Source: an uncultured SAR116 cluster alpha proteobacterium
GTDB taxonomy: Bacteria; Pseudomonadota; Alphaproteobacteria; Puniceispirillales; Puniceispirillaceae
Assembly (NCBI GenBank): GCA_902559985.1
Contig: CACEJY010000003.1
Location: forward strand, 1-64,000
Direction of reading: 5' to 3'
Length of the DNA: 64,000 nt
Positions within the stretch are counted from its first letter, which is position 1, and each line of letters begins with the position of its first letter. Positions 14,732 to 47,386 of this stretch are shown here, one piece after another. A program made the translations under genes and the position numbers. Below the pieces are notes generated by a model, which saw only the letters and a program-made list of their open reading frames with translations, was not told where the DNA came from and ran no database searches.

Positions 14732-15778
14732 TCATATCAATTTATTATCAATCAGGGCCTCTTTTCTACGAAAGGCAGCGAGGTCCGGTGCCCCAGTGAG
14801 AAACAGCGTTAGTGCCATTTGCCGTTGCAACTGATCAACCAGACCTGAGAGGCTGTCTGGTGATGGTGTCTTGTTATGTCTGAGGAGCTGAGCCAGCAAT
14901 GGTCCGGCAAGTGATATCGTCTCGGCTCCAAGCCAGAAAGCTCGCATAGCATCCAATCCATGCCGTACCCCACCCGACGCAATAATATGTTGGTCTGGAA
15001 ATGACCCACGCATAGAAAGTAGACACTCAAGTGTTGGGATGCCCCAATCCAAAAACGGGATAAAAAGATTGGTGTCATAACGACGGCGTGCAGCCTCAAT
15101 TCTTGCCCAATTTGTACCGCCAAACCCTGCAACATCAACAGCCATCACACCGCAATCAAACAGCTCTTTGGCAACTTGAACAGAAATGCCTGCACCAACC
15201 TCTTTAACAATTACCGGCGCCGTATCAGTTCTAACAAGGTTAGCAATGGCGTCCCGCACACCACGCCAGTCGCTCTCGCCTTCAGGTTGAACGGCCTCTT
15301 GAAGTGGATTCAGGTGAATTGCAATTGCATCAGCTTGCAAATCATCAATCGCAGCTTTGGCAAGATCAAGGCCGGTAGATTGGGCCAATTGAATGCCGCC
15401 AAGGTTGCCAATAATCGGAATATCGGGTGCAAGGTCTCGCAGATAAGCTGCGCTTTGCCCATTTTCTAGAGCCGCGCGCTGCGACCCAACGGCGAAGGCA
15501 ATTTTTTTTTCCTGTGCCACGGTGGCAAGCGCCCTGTTAATTGCTTCGGCGCGCGCGGTTCCGCCGGTCATAGCGCCAATCATCATTGGTGCGCTAAGGT
15601 GCCGGCTACAAAATGACGTGGTAAGATCAATCGTTGCAATGTCAAGTTCTGGCAGGGCACAATGTCTAAAACTCATACGATCAAATGAATTTTTACCTTC
15701 AGAATTTGTTTCAGGATCAAGCGCTAAGTCAATATGTGCATCTTTCCGTGATGAAGCTCGAATTGATTTAGTTGTCAT
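14732..15778 (-). CDS. fni: Type 2 isopentenyl-diphosphate delta-isomerase (FMN-dependent)
   Basis: 348 aa; RKDAHIDLAL, APMMIGAMTGG, FAVGSQRAAL, VKEVGAGIS, ASGGVRHGLDAMRAFWLGA. Confidence 0.93.
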   Translation of the reverse strand: MTTKSIRASSRKDAHIDLALDPETNSEGKNSFDRMSFRHCALPELDIATIDLTTSFCSRHLSAPMMIGAMTGGTARAEAINRALATVAQEKKIAFAVGSQRAALENGQSAAYLRDLAPDIPIIGNLGGIQLAQSTGLDLAKAAIDDLQADAIAIHLNPLQEAVQPEGESDWRGVRDAIANLVRTDTAPVIVKEVGAGISVQVAKELFDCGVMAVDVAGFGGTNWARIEAARRRYDTNLFIPFLDWGIPTLECLLSMRGSFPDQHIIASGGVRHGLDAMRAFWLGAETISLAGPLLAQLLRHNKTPSPDSLSGLVDQLQRQMALTLFLTGAPDLAAFRRKEALIDNKLI

Positions 15779-16608
15779 TCTAAACGGTCCTTTTTTTCAG
15801 TTCGAAAAAACCCGTCAACAAGTATCATATGTGGCACGGTTAACGCCGCAAGGCCAATGAAAATAATTTGTATAAGTTCGGCTTCTAATGTGCTCTCATT
15901 CAGCCACAAAAATGCTACCGCGCCAAAAAGCCAACTGGCAATGGTGTAGCCCGCGGCTTGCATTATGAGGCGCTTTGGCGCCGCTGTAGCTTTCAATATA
16001 TGCCAAATCCTTCGCATATGCCTGCTAGTGTGGATGATACAGAAATATAATGCAAAGCCAACAAGCGGTGGTAAAGCTGCCAAAAGAGTGGTGATGATTA
16101 TTATCTCTATAAACCTTCCTCGTAGAGTTGGGTTATGTAATGCAAGCACCGCATAAAGAACGCCAAGGCATAGCAATATTGGGGCTGCAAGCTGGCCTAA
16201 CCGCATAGCTAGGTCCGGTGCACCGAAGGTTAAAATAGAAAATAACGACGCCACCTCATCTGGATGAAAATAGATAATGCCGAAGACAGGAACCCCACCA
16301 TGGATGACAATTTGCACAAAAAATGGCAAGCCAAACTTGGCGCTGGCATCGCCCCAGCCGAAATGGATGACGGATATAATCAAAAACAGCACCAGCATTT
16401 CACCCGGTAAGGCAGTCCATAAGGCAATGATTGTTGCTGATGTAAGGCCGTAATAAATAATGAATTTCGTTGCAGTGTAAGCGGATTTTCCAGCGCCGAG
16501 GTGAGCCGCAATGGCCCCATCAAACGCTCCATGTGGCAGACCTATCAAAATCACAAATAGCAGCGCGCAAAGATTGATAATATCAAGGGTAATGAATTGC
16601 TCTATCAT
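15775..16608 (-). CDS. blh: Brp/Blh family beta-carotene 15,15'-dioxygenase
   Basis: FVILIGLPHGAFDGAIAAHLG, HFGWGDA, HTSRHM; overlaps crtY stop with ATGA. Confidence 0.92.
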   Translation of the reverse strand: MIEQFITLDIINLCALLFVILIGLPHGAFDGAIAAHLGAGKSAYTATKFIIYYGLTSATIIALWTALPGEMLVLFLIISVIHFGWGDASAKFGLPFFVQIVIHGGVPVFGIIYFHPDEVASLFSILTFGAPDLAMRLGQLAAPILLCLGVLYAVLALHNPTLRGRFIEIIIITTLLAALPPLVGFALYFCIIHTSRHMRRIWHILKATAAPKRLIMQAAGYTIASWLFGAVAFLWLNESTLEAELIQIIFIGLAALTVPHMILVDGFFRTEKKDRLE

Positions 16609-17756
16609 TTGTTTTGCCCCAGATTTTGGTCTGTGGTGATTTGGTCGTCTCGATATTTTTTCCTGATTTGCGGTACCAAAGAGAGTAAAAAAGGCCATTT
16701 CGGCATCGCAAAAATAACTTTCAACCATATTTTCATGCTTGCTTCCCCACTTAAAAAACAAGCGAATTCATCACCGTTTAGATAACGGGCTAATGACGTG
16801 AAAATAGCCGGGGCCAGAGACGGTTTATGCCGAATAACATCTAGAAAAATTTGGTCCATCATAAGTTCAAAACGGCTGTGGGGCTTTTTTACTTGAAGCG
16901 GCTTTCCGGGCTTTGCACCGCGTAAAATCTGATCAATTTGTTTTTGGATGAAAGTAAAAGCGTATCCACTGGACGGTCGGATGGCGCCTCCATTTGCTCC
17001 GATTCCAGTTCGATCTGGATCGCGTTGTTTTAAATTCGCCATAGGAATCACGCCCCGCTCACGTCGCTTTACAATGTAATCTGTGCATTCAAGATGGTTA
17101 GCGAGATAATGCTTTATGGCTGTGTCGTAAAAATCTTCGGGCACCAATGATGGAGAAAATAATGTGGATTCAACAAGTGCACGCCGCTGGGTAAAAGGAA
17201 GGTAGTAGATAAAATGAACACCACGGCTTTGGTCACATCTGAAGTCCATTAAAATGGCTGTATCAGGGTTAAACACATCGCGATTACTTGTGATTTCATA
17301 ACCTAAAAAATGTTGCAACAAAGCCCCTGGAGGGGATTTAGGTGGCCGACTATCAAGGATTTGTTCAGGATTTAGATGATCCAGGTTATGTACAACGCTA
17401 ACCCCAGCATCTTTAGCCCGTTGATGGCAGTGAGACAGCCACTCATGCCGGCTGAGGGCGCAATAGGGATGGGTTTTAGATGATAAGTCTAGCAGTAGGT
17501 CCGGACTGATAATGCGCCAATTATGCCATGTTTTCTGGGTAACGCTTGTTACATGGTCCAACCACGGCATTGCCCAGAACCCCCAAATATGATCGTCTGA
17601 CAAATGGGTTTCTGGGTCGACAATGGTAAACTGATGCGACGAGAACGCATCACTTCTAGCGGCGAGCGATAGAGCAGCGCAGCCTGCTCCAAGAACGGCA
17701 ATAGGCATTTTAGCCTGCCCACTGTTTATTCTATTATCTGACGCCTTACCTGACAT
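16605..17756 (-). CDS. crtY: Lycopene beta-cyclase
   Basis: IAVLGAGCAALSLAARS, DDHIWGFW, ILMDFRCDQ, MANLKQRDPDRTGIGANGGAIRPSSGYAF, CrtY-type. Confidence 0.93.
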   Translation of the reverse strand: MSGKASDNRINSGQAKMPIAVLGAGCAALSLAARSDAFSSHQFTIVDPETHLSDDHIWGFWAMPWLDHVTSVTQKTWHNWRIISPDLLLDLSSKTHPYCALSRHEWLSHCHQRAKDAGVSVVHNLDHLNPEQILDSRPPKSPPGALLQHFLGYEITSNRDVFNPDTAILMDFRCDQSRGVHFIYYLPFTQRRALVESTLFSPSLVPEDFYDTAIKHYLANHLECTDYIVKRRERGVIPMANLKQRDPDRTGIGANGGAIRPSSGYAFTFIQKQIDQILRGAKPGKPLQVKKPHSRFELMMDQIFLDVIRHKPSLAPAIFTSLARYLNGDEFACFLSGEASMKIWLKVIFAMPKWPFLLSLVPQIRKKYRDDQITTDQNLGQNK

Positions 17757-18699
17757 GGGGAAGCCCCTTAATAGGTTGATGAAGCGCAGCATTATGCTGG
17801 GCATAAGAATGCCCACGCTGGACCAAACTTCCGAGTGCTTTTATACTACAAATTATCTTTGTAAACCGGCTAGTGACCTCGCGCCCACGATGCCAACCAT
17901 GCTGTTTAAGGCGCAGCTGAACGCCAATCTGGCGGTATACGTGTGCCGCAATAGCAATCGAGATATGGGCGCGAAGCGGCAGATATGAAAATCCCTCCAT
18001 GCCACTTTTGTAATAATCATCAGCAAGGTTTAGCAGTTTTTTTACGGCGGTGGTGACGGCGACGGCTTCGTTGGCTAATGGGGTTTTGGCGAGGGCAACA
18101 ATTCGCGACGGTTGCAGATCACCAACCCAGCTTTCAGGGAGGTAGCGGCGGCCCATTTCAGCATCTTCTAGGACATCACGAGCAATATTGGTTAGCTGCA
18201 TAGCGATACCCAGATCCATCGCATGATCCAGCGCGTTTTTATGGTGGCAGTTCAGGATATCACACATGAGAATACCAACTGTGCCGGCAACACGATAGGC
18301 GTATACAAGCAATTCCGCTTCAGTTTTGATTCGTACTGGTTTTTGATCGCTTAACAGACCATCAATCAATGCTACTACCACATCAGGCGAGCAGCGATGT
18401 TTTTGGAGAAAAGGCTTGAAGACAACCATCAGCGGATCAAGAGGTTCACCAATGGTTTCAAACTCTCGACGGATGGACCGAAGCCGGTGATATCCATTTT
18501 CAATGTCTCCATCAGCCATATCATCAAGGACGCGGCACAATTGATAAAGACGAGCGGCATCGGCACCCATTTTTTGGCCAAGAAAACGCTTGGCCCAATT
18601 AAAGCTCTTACCATACACAGCAAGTGTCTTATCAGGTGTAAATGTTTCGCTGGGGGCTGCGGTCATCATTTTTACCAATTCTTCACCACGCCAATGCAT
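17746..18699 (-). CDS. crtB: Phytoene synthase
   Basis: SFNWAKRFLGQKMGADAARLYQLCRVLDDMADGD (first Asp-rich motif), AMQLTNIARDVLEDAEMGRRYLP (second). Confidence 0.95.
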   Translation of the reverse strand: MHWRGEELVKMMTAAPSETFTPDKTLAVYGKSFNWAKRFLGQKMGADAARLYQLCRVLDDMADGDIENGYHRLRSIRREFETIGEPLDPLMVVFKPFLQKHRCSPDVVVALIDGLLSDQKPVRIKTEAELLVYAYRVAGTVGILMCDILNCHHKNALDHAMDLGIAMQLTNIARDVLEDAEMGRRYLPESWVGDLQPSRIVALAKTPLANEAVAVTTAVKKLLNLADDYYKSGMEGFSYLPLRAHISIAIAAHVYRQIGVQLRLKQHGWHRGREVTSRFTKIICSIKALGSLVQRGHSYAQHNAALHQPIKGLPHVR

Positions 18700-18701
18700 G
18701 A

Positions 18702-20240
18702 TTATAGCGCATCAACCCTTGCCTTGGCGATGGCTTGTTTTTTTTCATCTTCATCAACTAGACTTTCCACCACTTTTGCTGAACATAGAACGCCGGGTAT
18801 ACCTGCGCCTGGGTGCGCGCCGGCCGCTGCAAAATATAAATTGGGGATATGTGGATCACGATTGTGAAAACGAAACCACGCCGACTGCATGAAAATAGGC
18901 GCAATTGAAAATCCAGCTCCATACATAGACCTGTAGTCATTCTTGAAATCTTCGGGTGTCATGTAGAATGGGTCTGAAATGACTTTATCCAGATCAGGCA
19001 GAATCGTGTCAGCAAGTGCCTTGATAATCCGATCCTGCAATTTAGGACCGCTTTCATTCCAGTCGATTGACGCGCGCAAGTTTGGCACGGGACACAAAAC
19101 ATAAAAGCTATCACACCCGTTAGGGGCAAAACTTTCATCAGTGGCCGTTGGTCGGTGTAAATATAACGAGAAATCATCAGCAAGGATTTTTCGATTAAAA
19201 ATATCGGCCAGTAACTCCTTGTAACGTGGCCCCATCCAGATGGTATGATGGGCAATATTGTCGTAGCGTTTTTTTGTGCCAAAAAACAACACGAAAAGGC
19301 CCATCGAGTATTTAGTCAATTTGTCTGGCATCAAGCGTTTTCCTTTTGCGTGCTTGGCGGGCATCATTTGCCGGTACACCGTCGGTGGGTCTCCATTACA
19401 AATAACACGATCAGCCGGGTAATATTTGCCGTTGCTTGCGGTCGCGCCAACCGCTTTGCCATCCTTTATATTAATGCTGGTAATATCGGTATCCAAAACC
19501 ACTTTGACCCCAACGCGTCGCAATAAGGCATTCAAGGCTGACACTAGCTGGCCCGTGCCCCCCATTGCAAAAAAAACACCCCAACGCCGTTCAAGGTAAT
19601 GAATAAGTGCATAAATCGATGTAGTACTGAATGGATTGCCGCCAACCAACAATGGATGGATAGAAAAGGCCTGCCGCAAAAGTGGGTGCTTGATATATTT
19701 ATTAACAATGCCAGCAACAGAGTAATAGCTTTGTAGCCGCAACAGGCTTGGAATTTGGGCAAGCATGGTAGTGAATTTTGAAAAAGGCTTGTCAGCTAAC
19801 TTTTCAAAGCCGATTTCAAAAATAGCTTTAGAGGTGCGAAGTAGCTTGGCATAGCCAGCGACATCATCAGGCGAAAAGCGCCTTATTTCAGCGTTGGTAT
19901 CTTCAACCGACGGGCGATAATCAAATTGCTCACCAGTATGAAAATAGAATCGGTACCAAGGATCCAGAGAACGAAATTCGACATGATCTTCTCGTTTTTC
20001 TCCAAAAAGGCCAAATAATTCATCAAATAAAAAAGGTGCGGTAATAACGGTCGGGCCAGCGTCATGGCGAAAGCCGCCACGCTCAAATACCTGAGCCCGA
20101 CCACCAATTGCTGATAGCCGGTCAAGTAGCGTCACATCATACCCACGGGCGCGCATGCGCAAAGCGACGGCAATACCTCCAAATCCAGCGCCAATCACAA
20201 TCACCTTGCCTCCTGCTTTTAGCAAGGTATTAGGCTCCAT
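18702..20240 (-). CDS. crtI: Phytoene desaturase
   Basis: VIVIGAGFGGIAVALRMRARGYDVTLLDRLSAIGGRAQVFERGGFRHDAGPTVITAP; NLYFAAAGAHPGAGIPGVLCSAKV. Confidence 0.96.
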   Translation of the reverse strand: MEPNTLLKAGGKVIVIGAGFGGIAVALRMRARGYDVTLLDRLSAIGGRAQVFERGGFRHDAGPTVITAPFLFDELFGLFGEKREDHVEFRSLDPWYRFYFHTGEQFDYRPSVEDTNAEIRRFSPDDVAGYAKLLRTSKAIFEIGFEKLADKPFSKFTTMLAQIPSLLRLQSYYSVAGIVNKYIKHPLLRQAFSIHPLLVGGNPFSTTSIYALIHYLERRWGVFFAMGGTGQLVSALNALLRRVGVKVVLDTDITSINIKDGKAVGATASNGKYYPADRVICNGDPPTVYRQMMPAKHAKGKRLMPDKLTKYSMGLFVLFFGTKKRYDNIAHHTIWMGPRYKELLADIFNRKILADDFSLYLHRPTATDESFAPNGCDSFYVLCPVPNLRASIDWNESGPKLQDRIIKALADTILPDLDKVISDPFYMTPEDFKNDYRSMYGAGFSIAPIFMQSAWFRFHNRDPHIPNLYFAAAGAHPGAGIPGVLCSAKVVESLVDEDEKKQAIAKARVDAL

Positions 20241-20279
20241 TCTTCAAAAAGGAAATTTTTAAAGATCATAAATGGCGCT

Positions 20280-21302
20280 CTAGGAGGCAGAGTTGGTGCA
20301 GGCTGCAGTACATGCCTCTTTAATCAGCTTTTGAACTGGTGTTGTTACATCAGAAAGCTCAACAGACAGGCGTTCAGCCTTCTGCTCTGCTCGGTCTAAT
20401 GTTGCAAACATTCGATCAGCGGCCTCCTCAATTGCAACTGAATGTAATACACGGTCACGCCATGCGGCTAAATCTTTTATGTCGCCACTTTTGTACCATT
20501 GCTCAAAAATAACACGTTCATCAGCATCTAGTTTGTCAACAAATGAGAGCGTTACGGCGTTTGGAGCACGACGAGCGAGGTCACCAGCAACCAATTTAGC
20601 GCCATCATTACCATTAAAATTAGCGATGTCATTACCAATTTGGTAGGCCTCACCCAGATCACGGAAATATGCAAAAACTGTCTGTTCGGCGTGTTGATCC
20701 CCAGCCATTACCGCAATACCTTGAAGAGGCGCAGTTAAAAGTGGTGCAGTTTTATCAGCGGCTATGGTCAGGTAAGCATCCCAACTAAGATTACCATCCC
20801 ACTCCAATTCCATGGCTTCACCAGCGGTTGTTCGGGACATATGTTGGGCTAGAATCCGCATTAGCCTCGGAGTGTTCGAAATTTCCGCAGCTTCGGCGGC
20901 AAATTCAAAAGATAGTGCAATCAGCCAATCACCAAGTGTCAGTGCAACATTGCGACCAAATTTTGCCCAAACGGCTTGATTACCACGGCGTTGTTTATCA
21001 CCATCACAGATATCATCATGTACCAATGATGCATTGTGCAGCACCTCAACAGCCGCGGCCCATCTGATTGCCGCTGTTTGGTTCACTTGCAGAGCGTCCG
21101 CACCATGCATCGTCATCTTCGCACGAAGCATCTTTCCAGGTTTGCTGAAATGGTGCGCTGCGGCCTTGCCCAACGGCTTGTCATGAGTTGGCAGGCGGCT
21201 AACAATTAAATTTTGAACGTTATTTTTATCGGAAGGGTAAATGGGCGAAGAAATTAGGGATTTTTGATAGGAAAGGTTTCGCAATGTTGACAATTCATTC
21301 AT
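20280..21302 (-). CDS. crtE: Geranylgeranyl diphosphate synthase
   Basis: 340 aa; polyprenyl synthase motifs LVHDDICDGDKQRRG and YQIGNDIANFNGNDGAKL. Confidence 0.92.
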   Translation of the reverse strand: MNELSTLRNLSYQKSLISSPIYPSDKNNVQNLIVSRLPTHDKPLGKAAAHHFSKPGKMLRAKMTMHGADALQVNQTAAIRWAAAVEVLHNASLVHDDICDGDKQRRGNQAVWAKFGRNVALTLGDWLIALSFEFAAEAAEISNTPRLMRILAQHMSRTTAGEAMELEWDGNLSWDAYLTIAADKTAPLLTAPLQGIAVMAGDQHAEQTVFAYFRDLGEAYQIGNDIANFNGNDGAKLVAGDLARRAPNAVTLSFVDKLDADERVIFEQWYKSGDIKDLAAWRDRVLHSVAIEEAADRMFATLDRAEQKAERLSVELSDVTTPVQKLIKEACTAACTNSAS

Positions 21303-21336
21303 TGGATGCCTCTACCTTTATATCTGATAGCGGGGA

Positions 21337-21361
21337 AGGGGGCCGGATTTCCAGCCGCCCC
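21337..21361. promoter_or_regulatory. GC-rich stem-loop between proteorhodopsin and crtE
   Basis: GGGGGCCGGATTTCCAGCCGCCCC forms an interrupted GC stem (outer GGGG/CCCC, inner CCGG/CTGG); T-run follows on the plus-strand side. Confidence 0.5.
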
Positions 21362-21371
21362 TCATATTTTT

Positions 21372-22151
21372 TTATTTGCTGGCTGAAGTCGCAGCGTTTG
21401 CTGCAGCCCAGATAATGCCAACGAAGGCGATCTTGTTTACAACGTCTGCAACGTTATAGATCACGTTCAAAGTCACAGCGTCGACAGACCCATTCAGGTA
21501 GCCCAAGAAGTAACCGAGTGGATAGATCGCCCATCCTACAGTTACGATCAAACGCATAGTGCCAAAGGCTGACTGAACCCCTGCTGGAGCTGACTCTGCG
21601 GAAACTCTGCCAGCTTCACCGGCAAAGATTTCATATAGAATGTAACCCCATCCTAACATGCCCACGATGAATGCTGGCCACGCAGGCGCCAAACCTGCTT
21701 CGCCCATGTAGCCTGCGACTAGCATCACCAGAGAACCAATCATCAAGCGCCAGAAAACGCCTGAGCTAACGACCGTGACAGCCGCAAGAATGAAGTAGAA
21801 TTCGACCATTTGAAGCGGAACAGTTATCAGCCAATCTACATACCGATAGACGGTCGGGCTAGCACCGGTGGATGCCCAGACATCCCTCATGTAGAAGTAG
21901 TGAACAGCTGCAACCAGAGTGACAAGGGCGCCAACGGTAAGCGACGTCCTCCATTTGCCACCCATCCGTCCGGCTTCCATTAGGAAGAAAACGGTAGCGG
22001 CAACCATGGCCATTGAAATAGTCCAGAAAGATATGCCCACATAGTCATTAGATTGGAGCATAGTTGTGGCAGCATTTGCGCTTACTGGTAATAATGTCAG
22101 CGCCGCTGTTGCCAAAGAAGCTTTAACGCCTCTCGCAGTTAGAAAACTCAT
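21372..22151 (-). CDS. Proteorhodopsin, proton-pump type (D97/T101/E108), Q105 blue-absorbing class
   Basis: 259 aa; RYVDWLITVPLQMVEFY gives D97, T101, Q105, E108 by motif alignment; Schiff-base Lys in NVADVVNKIAF; His75 in AAVHYFYMRDVW; N-terminal signal sequence. Confidence 0.98.
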   Translation of the reverse strand: MSFLTARGVKASLATAALTLLPVSANAATTMLQSNDYVGISFWTISMAMVAATVFFLMEAGRMGGKWRTSLTVGALVTLVAAVHYFYMRDVWASTGASPTVYRYVDWLITVPLQMVEFYFILAAVTVVSSGVFWRLMIGSLVMLVAGYMGEAGLAPAWPAFIVGMLGWGYILYEIFAGEAGRVSAESAPAGVQSAFGTMRLIVTVGWAIYPLGYFLGYLNGSVDAVTLNVIYNVADVVNKIAFVGIIWAAANAATSASK

Positions 22152-33572: not shown

Positions 33573-34304
33573 TTAATAAACAGGCACTTTAAGCTTAGAC
33601 GTCATCCCATGTTTTTCAAGCCGACCTGCAAGCCAGCCGTCTCTGATGGAACTCCTGATTACTTCATTTACGAAAGCAACAGAGTCTTGCTTTTCTTTTG
33701 GCAAGCCAATGGACTGTTTGATTGCAGTGAAAGGTTCGTCAATAAGCCTTATGCCCTCGTTATTTTCTGTCTCTTCAAGAAGTTTTGGTTTTAGGCTCGC
33801 TAGCACATCAACTTTGTTTTCAAAAAATAAGTCGTGAGACATTTGGATTGATGGGGATCTTACAATTCTAGCTAATTTAAAGTTATTACGAAGCCAAAGA
33901 TCATAAGCGCTGCGTTCCGACACGCCAATGCTAATGCCACGCCGGTCAATGTCAGAGTTGGTATGAAAATTAGCACAGTCACGAACCAGGAAATTAGCCT
34001 CAATCAACACATAGGGATCACTGAAATCTATAGCGTGTGCTCGATCAACCTCAAAAGCGATGTTGCCGATATCCCAAATATTTTTGCCGGCTGCATCGGC
34101 TAATTCGCCCGGCCGTTCGAAAGTGACAAACTCGAGAGGCAGGTCAAGAGCATTAGCAACGCGCCTCGCAATGTCAGGGGAAATCCCTTTAGGGGCTCCA
34201 TCAGGCCCACTGCCAGAGACAAGTAGAAAATTACTAAGGTTAATACCGGCTCTTAAAATGCCGCTTGGTGCGAGTTGGTGTTTAACGGCCCTCGATACGG
34301 TCAA
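33573..34304 (-). CDS. Type 2 periplasmic-binding-fold protein (SBP_bac_3-like) without recognisable signal peptide
   Basis: LRAGINLSNFLLVSGSGPDGAPKGISPDIARRVANALDLPLEFVTF...WDIGNIAFEVDRAHAIDFSDPYVLIEANFLV; TTG start after GGAGAG; ORF may start at 34316. Confidence 0.8.
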   Translation of the reverse strand: MTVSRAVKHQLAPSGILRAGINLSNFLLVSGSGPDGAPKGISPDIARRVANALDLPLEFVTFERPGELADAAGKNIWDIGNIAFEVDRAHAIDFSDPYVLIEANFLVRDCANFHTNSDIDRRGISIGVSERSAYDLWLRNNFKLARIVRSPSIQMSHDLFFENKVDVLASLKPKLLEETENNEGIRLIDEPFTAIKQSIGLPKEKQDSVAFVNEVIRSSIRDGWLAGRLEKHGMTSKLKVPVY

Positions 34305-34318
34305 AAAACTCTCCAAAA

Positions 34319-40717: not shown

Positions 40718-40836
40718 TGGCTTTAATCTGTAGTGGGTGGTGTTGATGGTTTGTTTATTGGAGTTTCGATTAGATAGAAGGTTAAAACCATAATATTTTA
40801 AAGTAGAGATGAAACCCTTTGGGGAGAGAGTTTGAA

Positions 40837-43332
40837 ATGACAAATCAGGCGAATTTAGCAAAAGAGGTGGAGGCACAGCCAACGAGGAAACTCCCGTCGT
40901 CCGCTCGTGCGGTCGTGATTGGTGGCGGTGCCGTTGGCTGTTCAGTTCTTTATCATTTGGCTGAAATGGGATGGACTGATTGTGTTTTGTTGGAAAAGAA
41001 CGAACTAACGTCAGGTTCAACATGGCATGCGGCAGGGAATTGCCCAAATTTTGTTGGCTCATGGACGATGATGAAAATTCAGTCCTACTCTACCCAACTT
41101 TATCGCAAGCTCGGTGACCTGGTGGATTACCCCATGAATTATCATGTCACTGGTGCCATACGTTTGGCGCACAGTCGCCAGCGCATGGAAGAATTCCGGC
41201 ATGTTCAATCGATGGGTCGGCATATGGGCATAGAATTTGAGGAAATGTCGAATAGTGACATGCAGGCGATGTATCCCTTTCTTGAAACACATGATCTTTA
41301 CGGTGGCCAGTGGGATCCCCTAGACGGTGATATTGATCCGGCACAATTGACCCAAGCGCTAGCCAAAGGTGCGCGCGATATGGGTGCAAAGATCGTTCGG
41401 TTTTGTCCTGTTACTGGCGTTGAACATGTTGACGGTGAATGGGAAATTTCCACACCAAATGGGAAAATTCGTGCTGAATATGTGATTAATGCAGCTGGGT
41501 ACCGTGCTGCCGAACTGGGTGCGATGTTTGGCCGTGATGTGCCATGTATATCATTGGCACATCAGTATTTAATTACCGAACCTATTCCTGAATTGACAGC
41601 ACGTAACAAAAAGCTGCCCTTGATCAGGGACCCGGATAGTTCCTATTATCTGCGGCAGGAAAAAGACGGTCTACTGCTTGGCCCTTATGAAAAGAACTGC
41701 CGAGCACATTGGCTGGAGGCTGATGATCCAATGCCAGATGATTTTTCCTTTCAGCTCTATAACGATGATCTTGAACGTCTGGAATGGTATATTGAAGATG
41801 CCTGTGCGCGAGTGCCACTTCTTGGTACTGCGGGCATTAAAAGGGTGGTAAATGGGCCCATACCATATACACCGGATGGTCTCCCGTTAATCGGACCAAT
41901 GCCGGGTGTGCCTAACGCGTTTGAGGCGTGTGTCTTTACCTTTGGTATTGTGCAGGCGGGCGGGGCTGGCAAGCTGCTTGCTGAGATGATTGTTGAGGGT
42001 GAAACCGAGAGTGATAGCTGGGCGGTTGACCCGCGCAGATTTACGGATCATGTCGATGTTCGCTACACGGCGGCCAAAGCTATTGAAACCTATAGCCATG
42101 AATACGCTATGCATTTTCCGCAGATCCAATGGCCAGCAGGGCGGAAGGCTAAATGCTCGCCGCTTTATGACCGGCTGGAAGAAGCCGGGGCCGAATTCGG
42201 CAGCTATGGTGGCTGGGAACGGGCGGACTGGTTCCCGTCAAATGACGATGACCGCCTGGCCGCGAATAGCTATGATCGGCAGCATTGGTTTGATACGGTT
42301 GGGGAGGAATGCCGTCATGTTGCAGCCCATGCTGGCATTATAGAGTTGACTGGGTTTTCTCGGTTTCATGTCAGTGGGGTGGGGGCAGATGATTGGCTGA
42401 AGTCGCAAATCACAGGTAATTTGCCACTCGTTGGCCGCATTGGTCTGGTTTATTTTGCTTCCCCAAAAGGCAAGGTTTTGAGCGAAATGACCATGACCCG
42501 CGTTGCCGAAAATGACTATTTGTTGATGACTGGTGCCGGTGCCTATTGGCATGATCGTGATTTACTGAATGCCAGCCTTTCGGAAAATAAAAGTATTAGC
42601 ATCGCTGATGTAACGCGAGACCTTGCCACGTTGCTGGTGACTGGACCAAAATCACCAGCCATCCTGGCGGCGGTGACAAGTCAAACAACATCAACTGAAG
42701 ATTTTCCATGGCTAAGCCATCAGAAAGTGAGAATTGCTGGCTCTGAAGTAACTGCCATCCGTGTGTCATATGCCGGTGAAGCTGGATTTGAGCTGCATTG
42801 CAAAATGAGTGATGTTGTTTCGGTTTATGACTCTGTTTTGGCAGCTGGTGCGGCGCATGAGTTACGATCCTTTGGCATGCTGGCACTTGACTCGATGCGG
42901 CTGGAAAAAGGCTATCGATCGTGGAAAGCTGATTTGACATCTGACTATACGATGCTGGAGTCTGGGCTTGACCGCTGGGTCAATTTCAACAAGGAAGATT
43001 TTGTTGGGCGGGCTGCACTCCAAAACGAAAGTCAGGCAGGCAGCGGCCGTGAATTTGTAACCCTCGTTCTGGATGATCCTGAGGATGATGGTCCATTTGG
43101 CGAGGCAGTTTATTTAAGTAGTGTTGTAATTGATGGCGCCGATGCTGGGCTGGTTGTCTCGAGCGGCTATGGGCACCGAGTAGGAGCATCAATTGCCATG
43201 GCGGTTGTTGATCGCAAACCCTTAAAAAGTGGCTCAGAGATATCGGTGCATGTGCTCGGCCGTCCACGCCGCGCCACGCTGATTGAGGGGCATGTACTTT
43301 ATGATCCTGAAAATACCAAAATGAAGGGGTAA
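40837..43332 (+). CDS. FAD-dependent oxidoreductase fused to GcvT-like domain (dimethylglycine/sarcosine dehydrogenase family), paralog 1
   Basis: AVVIGGGAVGCSVLYHLAEMGW, SGSTWHAAGN (covalent-FAD His motif), C-terminal GcvT segment VSYAGEAGFELHC...MLALDSMRLEKGYRSW. Confidence 0.93.
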   Translation: MTNQANLAKEVEAQPTRKLPSSARAVVIGGGAVGCSVLYHLAEMGWTDCVLLEKNELTSGSTWHAAGNCPNFVGSWTMMKIQSYSTQLYRKLGDLVDYPMNYHVTGAIRLAHSRQRMEEFRHVQSMGRHMGIEFEEMSNSDMQAMYPFLETHDLYGGQWDPLDGDIDPAQLTQALAKGARDMGAKIVRFCPVTGVEHVDGEWEISTPNGKIRAEYVINAAGYRAAELGAMFGRDVPCISLAHQYLITEPIPELTARNKKLPLIRDPDSSYYLRQEKDGLLLGPYEKNCRAHWLEADDPMPDDFSFQLYNDDLERLEWYIEDACARVPLLGTAGIKRVVNGPIPYTPDGLPLIGPMPGVPNAFEACVFTFGIVQAGGAGKLLAEMIVEGETESDSWAVDPRRFTDHVDVRYTAAKAIETYSHEYAMHFPQIQWPAGRKAKCSPLYDRLEEAGAEFGSYGGWERADWFPSNDDDRLAANSYDRQHWFDTVGEECRHVAAHAGIIELTGFSRFHVSGVGADDWLKSQITGNLPLVGRIGLVYFASPKGKVLSEMTMTRVAENDYLLMTGAGAYWHDRDLLNASLSENKSISIADVTRDLATLLVTGPKSPAILAAVTSQTTSTEDFPWLSHQKVRIAGSEVTAIRVSYAGEAGFELHCKMSDVVSVYDSVLAAGAAHELRSFGMLALDSMRLEKGYRSWKADLTSDYTMLESGLDRWVNFNKEDFVGRAALQNESQAGSGREFVTLVLDDPEDDGPFGEAVYLSSVVIDGADAGLVVSSGYGHRVGASIAMAVVDRKPLKSGSEISVHVLGRPRRATLIEGHVLYDPENTKMKG

Positions 43333-43336
43333 TTAG

Positions 43337-45808
43337 ATGCAAGTCCCATCAAGAGCGCGTGCGGTAATTATTGGTGGCGGCGTTGTTGGCTGCTCAATTG
43401 CATATCATCTTGGCAAATTGGGCTGGCGCGATGTTGTGCTGCTGGAACGTAAGCAATTAACCTGCGGCACAACATGGCATGCGGCGGGGCTGATTGCGCA
43501 ACTGCGCGCAACCCAAAATATGACGAGACTTGCCAAATATTCACAGGAACTTTATTTCGGCCTTGAAGCTGAAACAGGAGTTGCCACCGGGTTCAAGCGC
43601 AACGGATCAATCACGGTTGCGCTTACCGACGAGCGTATGGAGGAATTGAGCCGGTCAGCTGCGATGGCGCGAGCCTTCGGTGTTGAAATTGATGAGGTTA
43701 CCCCCAGCGATATCAGTAGCCTGTATCCTGAATTAATGACTGATGATGTCGTTGGCGGTGTTTGGCTGCCAAAAGATGGGCAGGCAGATCCCGTCAACAT
43801 CACTCAAGCCTTGGCAAAAGGAGCGCGTAATTTTGGTGCCTCAATACTGCAAGGGGTCAAGGTAACAGGAGTCAATCAGGCCAATGGCCGGGTCACCGGT
43901 GTTGAGACCAATCATGGGCCTATTGTGGCTGATTATGTAGTGAATGCCGGCGGCATGTGGGGGCGTGAAATTGGTGCCATGGCAGGTGTGGCGGTACCGC
44001 TTCATGCTTGCGAGCATTTTTACGTCGTGACCGAGGCAATGGCTGGTTTAACGCCAAACCTGCCGGTGCTGAGGGTGCCTGATGAATGCGCTTATTACAA
44101 AGAAGACGCCGGTAAAATCCTGCTTGGGGCGTTTGAAGCAAATTCAAAGCCATGGGGGATGAGCGGTATTCCTGAAGATTTTGAATTTGACTCGCTGCCC
44201 GAAGATTTTGATCATTTCGAACCAATTTTGGAAAAGGCTGTTGAGAGGTTTCCGTTGCTGGCTAAGACCGGTATCCAAACTTTTTTTAATGGCCCCGAGA
44301 GTTTTACCCCTGACGACCGCTATATCCTTGGTGAGGCACCAGAGTTGGGTAATTTTTTTGTTGCAGCTGGTTTTAATTCCGTCGGAATTCAATCGGCTGG
44401 TGGTGCAGGGATGGTGCTCGCTGACTGGATGGATCGTGGGGAGGCACCCATTGATCTTTGGGATGTTGACATACGCCGGATGCAACCATTTCAAGCGAAT
44501 CGAAGCTATCTGCAGAGCCGCGTTTCAGAAACCCTCGGCCTCCTATATGCTGATCATTTCCCTTACCGCCAATTTGCCTCGGCCCGCGGCGTTCGGCGCT
44601 CGCCAATCCATAGCCAACTCGAGGCAGAGGGTGCATGTTTTGGAGAGGCCTCTGGCTGGGAAAGGGCCAATTGGTTTCTGCCAAAAGCTGCGAAGAATGC
44701 TGGCAAAAAAGCTGAATATGACTATAGTTGGCGTCGTCAGAATTGGTTTGAATATAGTGCAGCAGAACATATGGCCGTACGGCAGAAGGTGGGCATATTT
44801 GACATGTCCAGCTTTGGCAAAATCAAATTAATTGGGCGTGATGCGGAGGCGGTGCTTCAGCGTATTGCGGCCAATGATGTTGCTGTGCCAGTTGGCAAGA
44901 TCGTTTATACGCAGTTTCTTAATTCCGAGGGTCATATTGAGGCTGATGTCACGATTACAAGGCTCAGCCCAGATGAATTTTTGATCGTAACTCCAGCTGC
45001 AACTATTCGACGTGACCTGCATTGGATCAACGGTCACATTCCTGATTCATCTCATGCTATTGCGGTTGATATTACCGTGTCAGAGTCTGTCTTTGTGGTG
45101 ATGGGACCAGACGCGCGTTCATTCCTGGAGCCATTAATTCCACAAAGTCTGGAAAATAAGGATTTTCCCTTTGGGACAATGCAGCCTATCGAGATTGGCC
45201 ATGCCATCGCGAGGGCACACCGTGTCAGTTATGTTGGTGAATTGGGGTGGGAGCTTTATGTATCATCTGATATGTCGGCCCATGTGTTTGAAACAATTGC
45301 CGCTCGCCGCAAAGACCACCCGCTTGCCATGTGCGGCCTCCATGCACTTGATAGCTGTCGCATTGAAAAGGGGTTTCGCCATTTTGGTCATGATATCTCA
45401 AATGAAGATCATGTATTGGAAGCCGGTTTGGGGTTTGCCGTAAAAGAAAATAAACAGCCCGGCAAGTTTGGCCCGATGATTGGCGCTGATGCGGTAAAGG
45501 CAAAGCGTAATGATGGTCTTTCGCAACGCCTAATGCAGTTTCGCTTGGAGGATCCGGATCCGCTGTTGTATCACAATGAAGCAATTTACCGTGATGGTGT
45601 GGTCATTGGCTATTTAACCAGCGGTAATTATGGTCACCATCTTGGCGGAGCCATTGGCCTTGGTTATGTCAAGTGCAGCGCTGTTGGCGAAACTGCTGAG
45701 GCCCAATTAAATTCCCATTACCAAATTGATGTTGCAGGCAAATTGTTTGATGCAGATGTAAGTTTGCGCCCGTTTTACGATCCCAAAGCACTGCAGGTAA
45801 AACTTTGA
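43337..45808 (+). CDS. FAD-dependent oxidoreductase fused to GcvT-like domain (dimethylglycine/sarcosine dehydrogenase family), paralog 2
   Basis: AVIIGGGVVGCSIAYHLGKLGW, CGTTWHAAGL, C-terminal VSYVGELGWELYV...GLHALDSCRIEKGFRHFGHDI. Confidence 0.94.
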   Translation: MQVPSRARAVIIGGGVVGCSIAYHLGKLGWRDVVLLERKQLTCGTTWHAAGLIAQLRATQNMTRLAKYSQELYFGLEAETGVATGFKRNGSITVALTDERMEELSRSAAMARAFGVEIDEVTPSDISSLYPELMTDDVVGGVWLPKDGQADPVNITQALAKGARNFGASILQGVKVTGVNQANGRVTGVETNHGPIVADYVVNAGGMWGREIGAMAGVAVPLHACEHFYVVTEAMAGLTPNLPVLRVPDECAYYKEDAGKILLGAFEANSKPWGMSGIPEDFEFDSLPEDFDHFEPILEKAVERFPLLAKTGIQTFFNGPESFTPDDRYILGEAPELGNFFVAAGFNSVGIQSAGGAGMVLADWMDRGEAPIDLWDVDIRRMQPFQANRSYLQSRVSETLGLLYADHFPYRQFASARGVRRSPIHSQLEAEGACFGEASGWERANWFLPKAAKNAGKKAEYDYSWRRQNWFEYSAAEHMAVRQKVGIFDMSSFGKIKLIGRDAEAVLQRIAANDVAVPVGKIVYTQFLNSEGHIEADVTITRLSPDEFLIVTPAATIRRDLHWINGHIPDSSHAIAVDITVSESVFVVMGPDARSFLEPLIPQSLENKDFPFGTMQPIEIGHAIARAHRVSYVGELGWELYVSSDMSAHVFETIAARRKDHPLAMCGLHALDSCRIEKGFRHFGHDISNEDHVLEAGLGFAVKENKQPGKFGPMIGADAVKAKRNDGLSQRLMQFRLEDPDPLLYHNEAIYRDGVVIGYLTSGNYGHHLGGAIGLGYVKCSAVGETAEAQLNSHYQIDVAGKLFDADVSLRPFYDPKALQVKL

Positions 45809-45838
45809 TCATGAATATCGGGTGGGGAGACACGGCGG

Positions 45839-47386
45839 TTGGTCTATAACCGAAATATTCCAAATTCATCACGACGTAGCGGTGGCCGTGAAGCAAGGCG
45901 CTCCTTACGTGCTGCCCCACTGGCAAGGGATCTGAGGCCGGTCCGCGCAGGGCTTGAGGGTGGGCAATTCAAACCGTTGAGCGCAGAATCGGTAAAATCT
46001 ATTGATGTAACGGTCTATCAGATTCTGGAAGAAATAGGCTTAAGTCAGGCGCCGGAATCGGGGTTAAGATACATGACTGATGCTGGTGCGGTTCTGGGGG
46101 ATGATGGCCGGGTCCGGTTTCCCCGCGCATTGGTCGAAGATACGCTCTCAAAATGTGCCCGTAATATCAACCTGTATGGGCAAAATTCCAAACATGATTT
46201 ATTGCTATCAGGATCCCGCGTGCATTACGGAACAGCCGGTGCGGCGGTTCACGTCGTGGATGTTGAAAAAAATGAATATCGCGAGTCTTATCTTGCTGAT
46301 ATTTACGATGCTGCCCGCATTGTTGACCAAATGGATAACATCCATTTTTTTCAGCGTCCAATGGTTGCTCGAGACATCCTCAACCCCGCACACCTTGATC
46401 TCAATACGGTTTATGCGTCGATCAAAGGCACTACCAAACATGTTGGGTGCAGTTTTACTGAAGCTGAGTATATGGCTCCTGTTTTTGATATGCTGCACCA
46501 AGTTTCTGGCAGTGAAGAAAAGTGGCGAGCTCGTCCATTTGTATCCAATAGTAATTGCTTTGTCGTGCCTCCCCTCAGATTTGCAACCGAGTCCTGCCTT
46601 GTTATGGAAGAAGCGGTTCGTAATGGCATGCCGGTTTTATTACTATCGGCTGGTCAGGCTGGCGCGACTGCCCCGGCTAGTATTGCCGGCGCTGTTGCAC
46701 AAGCTCTATCGGAAGTAATTGCAGGTCTGATTTATGTAAATGCAATGCAAGCTGGTCATCCTTGCATTTGTGGAACATGGCCATTTGTATCGGATTTACG
46801 AACAGGGGCCATGTCAGGCGGGTCCGGCGAGCAGGGCCTGCTAACCGCTGCCTGCGCGCAGATGCTGCAATTTTATGATTTACCTGGCGGTGCTGCGGCC
46901 GGCATGGCGGATTCTAAAATGCCTGATGCGCAATCAGGTTATGAGAAGGGCTCCACGTTAGTAATGGCAGGGCTGTCGGGGCTGAATATGGTTTATGAAG
47001 CAGCTGGTATGCATGCCTCACTTTTAGGATTTTGTTTGGATAGTCTGATTATTGATAATGATGTGCTTGGTCAGTGTTTGCGATGTGTGCGGGGGATTGA
47101 AGTAAATGAGTCGACGCTTGGTTTGCAGGTTATGAAGGATGTGTGTATGGGTGGCCCTGGCCATTATCTTGGGCATGACCAAACAATCACTTTAATGCAA
47201 ACCGAATACATTTATCCTGAGATTTCTGATCGGTCTAGCCCGAAGGAATGGGAAGAACTGGGTAAACCTAATCTTTTAGATAATGCGCGAAAACGCAAAG
47301 AAGAGATTTTGCACCATTATCATCCAAACCATATTTCAAAGGAGCTTGACTCGGAATTGCGAAGTCAGTTTAAGATTTTACTATAG
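45839..47386 (+). CDS. Trimethylamine methyltransferase (MttB) superfamily protein, non-pyrrolysine
   Basis: 515 aa with no in-frame amber; GTAGAAVHVVD, AGQAGATAPASIAGAVAQALSEVIAGLIYVNAMQAGHPCICGTWPFVSDLRTGAMSGGSGEQGLL. Confidence 0.92.
   Translation: MVYNRNIPNSSRRSGGREARRSLRAAPLARDLRPVRAGLEGGQFKPLSAESVKSIDVTVYQILEEIGLSQAPESGLRYMTDAGAVLGDDGRVRFPRALVEDTLSKCARNINLYGQNSKHDLLLSGSRVHYGTAGAAVHVVDVEKNEYRESYLADIYDAARIVDQMDNIHFFQRPMVARDILNPAHLDLNTVYASIKGTTKHVGCSFTEAEYMAPVFDMLHQVSGSEEKWRARPFVSNSNCFVVPPLRFATESCLVMEEAVRNGMPVLLLSAGQAGATAPASIAGAVAQALSEVIAGLIYVNAMQAGHPCICGTWPFVSDLRTGAMSGGSGEQGLLTAACAQMLQFYDLPGGAAAGMADSKMPDAQSGYEKGSTLVMAGLSGLNMVYEAAGMHASLLGFCLDSLIIDNDVLGQCLRCVRGIEVNESTLGLQVMKDVCMGGPGHYLGHDQTITLMQTEYIYPEISDRSSPKEWEELGKPNLLDNARKRKEEILHHYHPNHISKELDSELRSQFKILL

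Follow-up and report, generated by a model that had tools for sequence, protein, structure and literature searches.

Ruegeria pomeroyi, an aerobic marine alphaproteobacterium, demethylates glycine betaine by means of the MtgBCD(E) system, which feeds folate, and has a split methionine synthase; SAR116 bacteria have been named among the carriers of mtgC (PMC12478193). In the anaerobic acetogen Eubacterium limosum, it is established that a single corrinoid protein serves several MttB enzymes: the paralogs MtpB, MtcB and MtyB, which differ in substrate, are encoded away from the single corrinoid protein and the activase that they share (MtqC, RamQ, MtqA; PMC8604678). Here, we analyze a three-gene locus on the first 64,000 nucleotides of contig CACEJY010000003.1 (the whole of this stretch is hereafter the window), corresponding to contig C3 of a 1.7-Mb metagenome-assembled genome (MAG) of the SAR116 cluster (Puniceispirillum-type, completeness 72.7%). 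Among named collections, it is closest to Candidatus Puniceispirillum and to SAR116 MAGs (locus L192 and G008:C11 are one and the same contig). The locus encodes two tandem proteins that combine a flavin adenine dinucleotide (FAD) domain with GcvT domains, followed by a non-pyrrolysine member of the MttB superfamily. These three genes probably constitute one catabolic operon for the full demethylation of a trimethylammonium compound, in which MttB, MtgC and MtgD would act first and the FAD-GcvT pair thereafter; as judged from sequence comparison, glycine betaine is likely not the primary substrate. The general idea, an aerobic MttB/MtgCD system that delivers methyl groups to folate, is already published for Ruegeria and reported for SAR116 (PMC12478193), and what is new here is a variant with a non-MtgB MttB and a FAD-GcvT pair.

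Architecture of the three-gene locus

The operon comprises three open reading frames on the forward strand, with 4 bp between the stop of the first FAD-GcvT gene and the second, and 30 bp between the stop of the second and the MttB gene:

40718-40836, + strand: intergenic stretch 5' of the operon, without the XRE-cupin regulator gene typical of SAR116 relatives
40837-43332, + strand: FAD-GcvT protein 1 (DMGDH1), 831 aa, ATG start; predicted dimethylglycine-dehydrogenase-type N-demethylase with folate-binding GcvT domains (Pfam, PDB match, motif)
43337-45808, + strand: FAD-GcvT protein 2 (DMGDH2), 823 aa; predicted paralogous N-demethylase (Pfam, PDB match, motif)
45839-47386, + strand: predicted MttB-superfamily quaternary-amine:corrinoid methyltransferase, non-pyrrolysine, clade A, 515 aa, TTG start (Pfam, tree)

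DMGDH1 and DMGDH2 both contain the complete series of DAO, FAO_M, GCV_T and GCV_T_C domains (Pfam), which is the full-length architecture of dimethylglycine dehydrogenase (DMGDH; 4p9s, 4pab, 5l46) and dimethylglycine oxidase (DMGO; 1pj5). The covalent-FAD histidine motif TWHAAG, located at residues 62–67 in DMGDH1 and 46–51 in DMGDH2, aligns with the same motif in mammalian DMGDH, which also provides the best PDB match of DMGDH1 (4pab/5l46, 567 bits); that of DMGDH2 is the DMGDH 4p9s (468 bits), with the DMGO 1pj5 at 383 bits. His225 and Tyr259 of DMGO (1pj5), which we take to be its catalytic residues, are conserved in both proteins in the alignment. On the basis of this architecture, the FAD motif and the His225/Tyr259 pair, both proteins are assigned as putative N-demethylases of the DMGDH/DMGO type. 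The window differs from the known enzymes in that it carries two tandem paralogs, the folate-site acids of which differ from each other: where DMGO has Asp552 and the mammalian enzyme Glu, DMGDH1 carries Glu and DMGDH2 Asp.

The window MttB matches the Pfam MTTB profile (PF06253) with 371 bits over profile positions 1–489 of 500, a score that excludes a chance match given the cut-off of 25. It belongs to the same family as pyrrolysine-type MttB (7xcl), with which it can be aligned over nearly its full length at 28% identity, but differs in lacking an in-frame amber codon: no stop precedes the end codon 516, Met356 takes the place of the pyrrolysine of 7xcl in the alignment, and its score against TIGR02369, the model for pyrrolysine-type MttB, is 360.7 bits and lies under the 525-bit equivalog cut-off. 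An Arg/Gly-rich N-terminus, RRSGGREARR (window 45839-45915), is common to aerobic MttB, encompassing clade A and MtgB-type orthologs, and falls outside the stretch that can be aligned with the anaerobic PDB enzymes.

These results bear out what a first-pass annotation had read from the letters, namely two tandem FAD-GcvT proteins with TWHAAG, an MttB-superfamily gene free of in-frame amber codons, and a window without corrinoid or corrinoid-activation genes. Its proposal of an aerobic demethylation that feeds folate also agrees with the domain content, with the catalytic residues of DMGO/DMGDH and with the aerobic MtgBCD system described earlier (PMC12478193).

Clade A and its separation from MtgB

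The order DMGDH1-DMGDH2-MttB is contiguous in 18 of the 20 SAR116 loci fetched with flanks, with varying neighboring genes, and the three genes lie apart on one contig in G018 (L045, L184) and G024 (L050, L183). The triad is also present in many Rhodobacterales and some Rhizobiaceae; the window MttB is a member of an uncharacterized clade that is kept as a triad across Alphaproteobacteria. An XRE-cupin regulator gene usually precedes the triad (L034-L044, L046-L048) and has been lost in the window and in G013. Among the loci, it is absent from L033 and from the window, and the regulator of G004, used as a tblastn query, returned nothing significant in the window. In the window genus, MttB is accompanied by genes for an acyl-CoA dehydrogenase, a 3HCDH-ECH fusion, an alpha/beta hydrolase and an O-acetylhomoserine sulfhydrylase, which we take to be unlinked, since SAR116 family f1 is the only one to conserve them in this vicinity.

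By identity to the window MttB, the SAR116 MttB proteins form three groups: A, corresponding to clade A (63–97% within the order), B (39–44%) and others (23–31%). In the MttB tree (FastTree; some branches are long, which calls for caution about the deep joins), groups A and B lie together, and the remaining SAR116 MttB join the characterized MtgB. MtgB (9yce, 2qne) and the mtgC-linked paralogs are united with 100% local support, and the window MttB falls outside this grouping, sharing 27% identity with MtgB 9yce and 25% with 4yyc. The E. limosum enzymes MtcB, MtpB and MtyB are not part of the tree and were compared by description rather than by sequence. The latter system resembles ours in having many MttB paralogs around one corrinoid protein, but differs in its anaerobic setting and in that its products undergo no further demethylation by FAD-GcvT proteins.

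SAR116 relatives encode an additional MtgB-like paralog with 42–43% identity to 9yce and 63% to 4yyc, a PDB entry titled putative trimethylamine methyltransferase that presumably derives from Sinorhizobium meliloti. The gene for this paralog is separated from mtgC by ~20-30 kb and has its own DMGDH and sarcosine oxidase genes (SoxAB) next to it. Since the MtgB-like paralog is separate, and four relatives contain an MtgB-side MttB, MtgC and RamA yet have no clade A member, group A is an accessory branch that probably acts on another substrate than MtgB. Glycine betaine as inferred by analogy with MtgB is not supported: MtgB is a different paralog, near mtgC, and we judge glycine betaine unlikely as the main substrate of the window MttB.

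Several further observations concern MttB genes and their surroundings. A second, partial MttB paralog, which the first-pass annotation did not see, is present on contig C64 of the window MAG, which carries a piece of the group B cluster. In its fuller form (L100 7211-16930; L185; L186; G004:C1:1180825-1187752), this cluster encodes a dipeptide-type ATP-binding cassette (ABC) transporter, a LysR protein, a flavin mononucleotide-type dehydrogenase, a thiamine pyrophosphate (TPP) enzyme, a small protein and a GcvT protein that scores above the cut-off for the dimethylsulfoniopropionate demethylase DmdA in G020 and G004. The megaplasmid of R. pomeroyi DSS-3 (L189 11917-21237) carries another type of MttB (46% identity to that of the window), the gene for which is lined up with those for two FAD-GcvT proteins, a class III aminotransferase and a TPP enzyme that shares 30% identity with Xsc. 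In a Rhizobiaceae MAG, a homocysteine-methyltransferase-like gene, as named by eye, lies between DMGDH1 and DMGDH2 (L220 5710-6606). The window also encodes a short family-3 solute-binding-like protein (33573-34316, − strand), copies of which (39–54% identical) are found near group A and B MttB genes in several genomes (L100, L107, L186, L045, L050, L205, L220) and may represent a sensor or enzyme of these clusters. At positions 14732-22151 of the window, also on the − strand, are a bacteriorhodopsin-like (proteorhodopsin) gene and carotenoid-type genes.

Gene neighborhoods and the candidate substrate

A clue to the substrate comes from relatives of the window, the triad being flanked by taurine dissimilation genes in SAR116 family f2 and in genera g4 and g10. 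In f2, it is followed by genes for a phosphotransacetylase (Pta) and a class III aminotransferase, as well as for a molybdenum enzyme with the three-subunit make-up of SoeABC, for a MocR regulator and for a transporter resembling TauABC, the AptA/Tpa-Pta-SoeABC(-TauABC) set of taurine dissimilation being found beside the triad at L044, L046-L049, L198, L201 and L203. (The names Tpa, Soe and TauABC are based on domains and context, and Xsc and AptA on scores above curated cut-offs.) The order in G024 is DMGDH1-DMGDH2-Pta-Xsc-AptA, with MttB followed by TauCBA, and Xsc reaches 922 bits against a cut-off of 676; Xsc-Pta adjoin DMGDH2-DMGDH1 in G018. In SAR116 f2, in G024 and at two loci of Rhodobacteraceae type, the aminotransferase next to the triad exceeds the cut-off for omega-aminotransferase AptA. 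The taurine-linked groups constitute two sister lineages on the tree, with the window genus nested in one of them, which implies that the taurine linkage was either ancestral and then lost, or gained twice. This contrasts with the R. pomeroyi system, in that the neighbors in SAR116 relatives point to taurine rather than glycine.

A red alga has been found to contain tri-, di- and monomethyltaurine along with taurine (PMC10538540). The demethylation of N,N,N-trimethyltaurine (taurobetaine) to taurine is our best single guess for the SAR116 triad, a tentative one that draws on the neighborhood in relatives. It is also conceivable, at a similarly guarded level, that the SAR116 clade-A MttB is a trimethyltaurine:corrinoid methyltransferase and that its operon represents the first route to be described that leads from trimethyltaurine via di- and monomethyltaurine to taurine. 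In abundant ocean bacteria, a sulfonated betaine from algae would thereby be coupled to the release of sulfite and to the supply of one-carbon units for folate. Our literature search, which covered few subscription papers, yielded no earlier description for homarine, for trimethyltaurine degradation or for an MttB with taurine, nor a taurine cluster with an MttB and two FAD-GcvT genes.

A number of observations weigh against taurobetaine. In the window and its genus, the triad has no taurine genes (Xsc, Tpa/AptA, Pta, TauABC, SoeABC) next to it, and the same holds for family f3 and the Rhodobacterales, where the neighbors differ: the f3 triad is followed by gcvT-gcvH-gcvP and adjoined by MmsA (669 bits, cut-off 448.5), and the Rhodobacterales triads by genes for an aldehyde dehydrogenase, a HIBADH-like hydroxyacid dehydrogenase and a Cys/Met pyridoxal-phosphate enzyme. 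In G025, a single-contig genome belonging to the same taxonomic order, a different, MtgB-side MttB lies directly beside Xsc (L280 8561-12100). Although Xsc co-occurs with clade A (26 of 38 versus 19 of 347 genomes), this association is not specific, as choline dehydrogenase (35 of 38 versus 53 of 347) and DmdA (19 of 38 versus 13 of 347) do so as well; we have therefore dropped co-occurrence as proof of a taurine link, leaving the gene neighborhood as the single line of evidence for it. Moreover, the function assigned to clade A is predicted from sequence, and the ligand could also be another betaine.

The last point leads to an alternative that we likewise regard as possible but doubtful, namely that the mechanism is the same and the trimethylammonium substrate another one, such as beta-alanine betaine or a further algal betaine, with substrates perhaps differing among clade A lineages. 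The triad-adjacent AptA-type aminotransferase would suit beta-alanine as well as taurine, and both the MmsA of f3 and the aldehyde and hydroxyacid dehydrogenases of the Rhodobacterales are in line with this alternative, but the triad-adjacent Xsc, Pta, SoeABC-like and TauABC-like genes would serve no evident purpose if the substrate were a carboxylate betaine.

An unlikely alternative is that the operon provides a second pathway for glycine betaine, with MttB acting on this compound, the FAD proteins on dimethylglycine and sarcosine, and the glycine passing to the cleavage system. Such a pathway would account for the similarity of the FAD proteins to DMGDH/DMGO, for the gcvT-gcvH-gcvP genes in f3, for the strong association of clade A with choline dehydrogenase and for the induction of two MttB proteins on glycine betaine in R. 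pomeroyi (PMC12478193). It is at odds with the position of the window MttB outside the clade of the characterized MtgB, at just 27% identity, and with the MtgB-type paralog near mtgC that relatives already have, together with its own DMGDH and sarcosine oxidase.

Corrinoid apparatus and proposed pathway

Neither B12-binding_2 nor RACo/RamA domains were found in the window or the whole, 72.7%-complete MAG. Among 40 relatives of the window genome surveyed for corrinoid, RamA and MttB genes, a B12-binding_2 protein is present in 31 and RamA in 31; nearly every MttB-bearing genome has one MtgC (~240 aa, with the B12 motif DIHDIG) and one RamA, with up to nine MttB paralogs per genome. The SAR116 lineage shares with R. 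pomeroyi a single set of MtgC, MtgD, RamA, DUF1638 and MetF2-like proteins, alongside a non-pyrrolysine MttB and nearby genes for later demethylation, but the window MttB belongs to another clade than the mtgC-linked MtgB and two FAD-GcvT genes are part of its operon. Two B12-binding_2 proteins are seen only in G025, the second within a CmuA-like protein; here, a CmuA-like URO-D/B12-binding fusion, a pterin-binding methyltransferase and a second RamA-like gene form one cluster (L105 6091-10916).

The gene order in G004 is mtgC, DUF1638, a MetF-like gene (MetF2), the pterin-binding mtgD and ramA. G013, which has 94.9% DNA identity to the window over 19.5 kb, carries the same mtgC-DUF1638-MetF2-mtgD-ramA cluster on a 17-kb stretch with genes, named by eye, for aconitase and cytochrome-c maturation (ccm), and no part of this stretch was found in the window MAG. 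Because the whole block is absent, aconitase included, synteny argues strongly that the missing corrinoid genes reflect an assembly gap rather than biology. The methyl acceptor that the first-pass annotation regarded as unknown can thus be set aside, since relatives have MtgC, MtgD, DUF1638 and RamA, and the genome search that it envisaged is empty in the MAG itself and positive in the 95%-identical G013 and most relatives. Of its overall interpretation, the folate-linked demethylation is supported, and the unknown acceptor and the glycine betaine analogy are not; for the substrate, which it had left open, the neighborhoods tentatively point to a taurine-type betaine. Methyl transfer by MttB to some acceptor besides MtgC, or without a corrinoid, would agree with the lack of these genes in the window and MAG, but is most improbable in view of the missing 17-kb block and of family f4, the five genomes of which are without MttB, MtgC and RamA jointly.

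The pathway that we propose is a corrinoid-dependent demethylation. Observed directly are the order of the genes, their domains and key residues, the conserved triad, a corrinoid apparatus common to the relatives and the separation from MtgB. In the first step, MttB would transfer a methyl group to cob(I)alamin on the sole MtgC-type corrinoid protein, the gene for which lies elsewhere in the genome; from there, MtgD would hand it to tetrahydrofolate and MetF2 would oxidize the methyl-folate, with RamA (together with DUF1638) re-reducing the cobalamin. For the second and third steps, residues and domains suggest that the FAD-GcvT pair would oxidize the dimethyl amine first and the monomethyl amine next, the carbon being trapped by the GcvT domains in the form of methylene-folate.

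No substrate is known for thousands of MttB proteins of the non-pyrrolysine type, and each SAR116 genome encodes several of them. A conserved unit of three genes, with three enzymes for three methyl groups, together with taurine genes in two related branches, provides a concrete and testable substrate for one large clade. If true, this would link algal methylated sulfonates to marine one-carbon and sulfur cycling and would raise the cobalamin demand of SAR116 bacteria.

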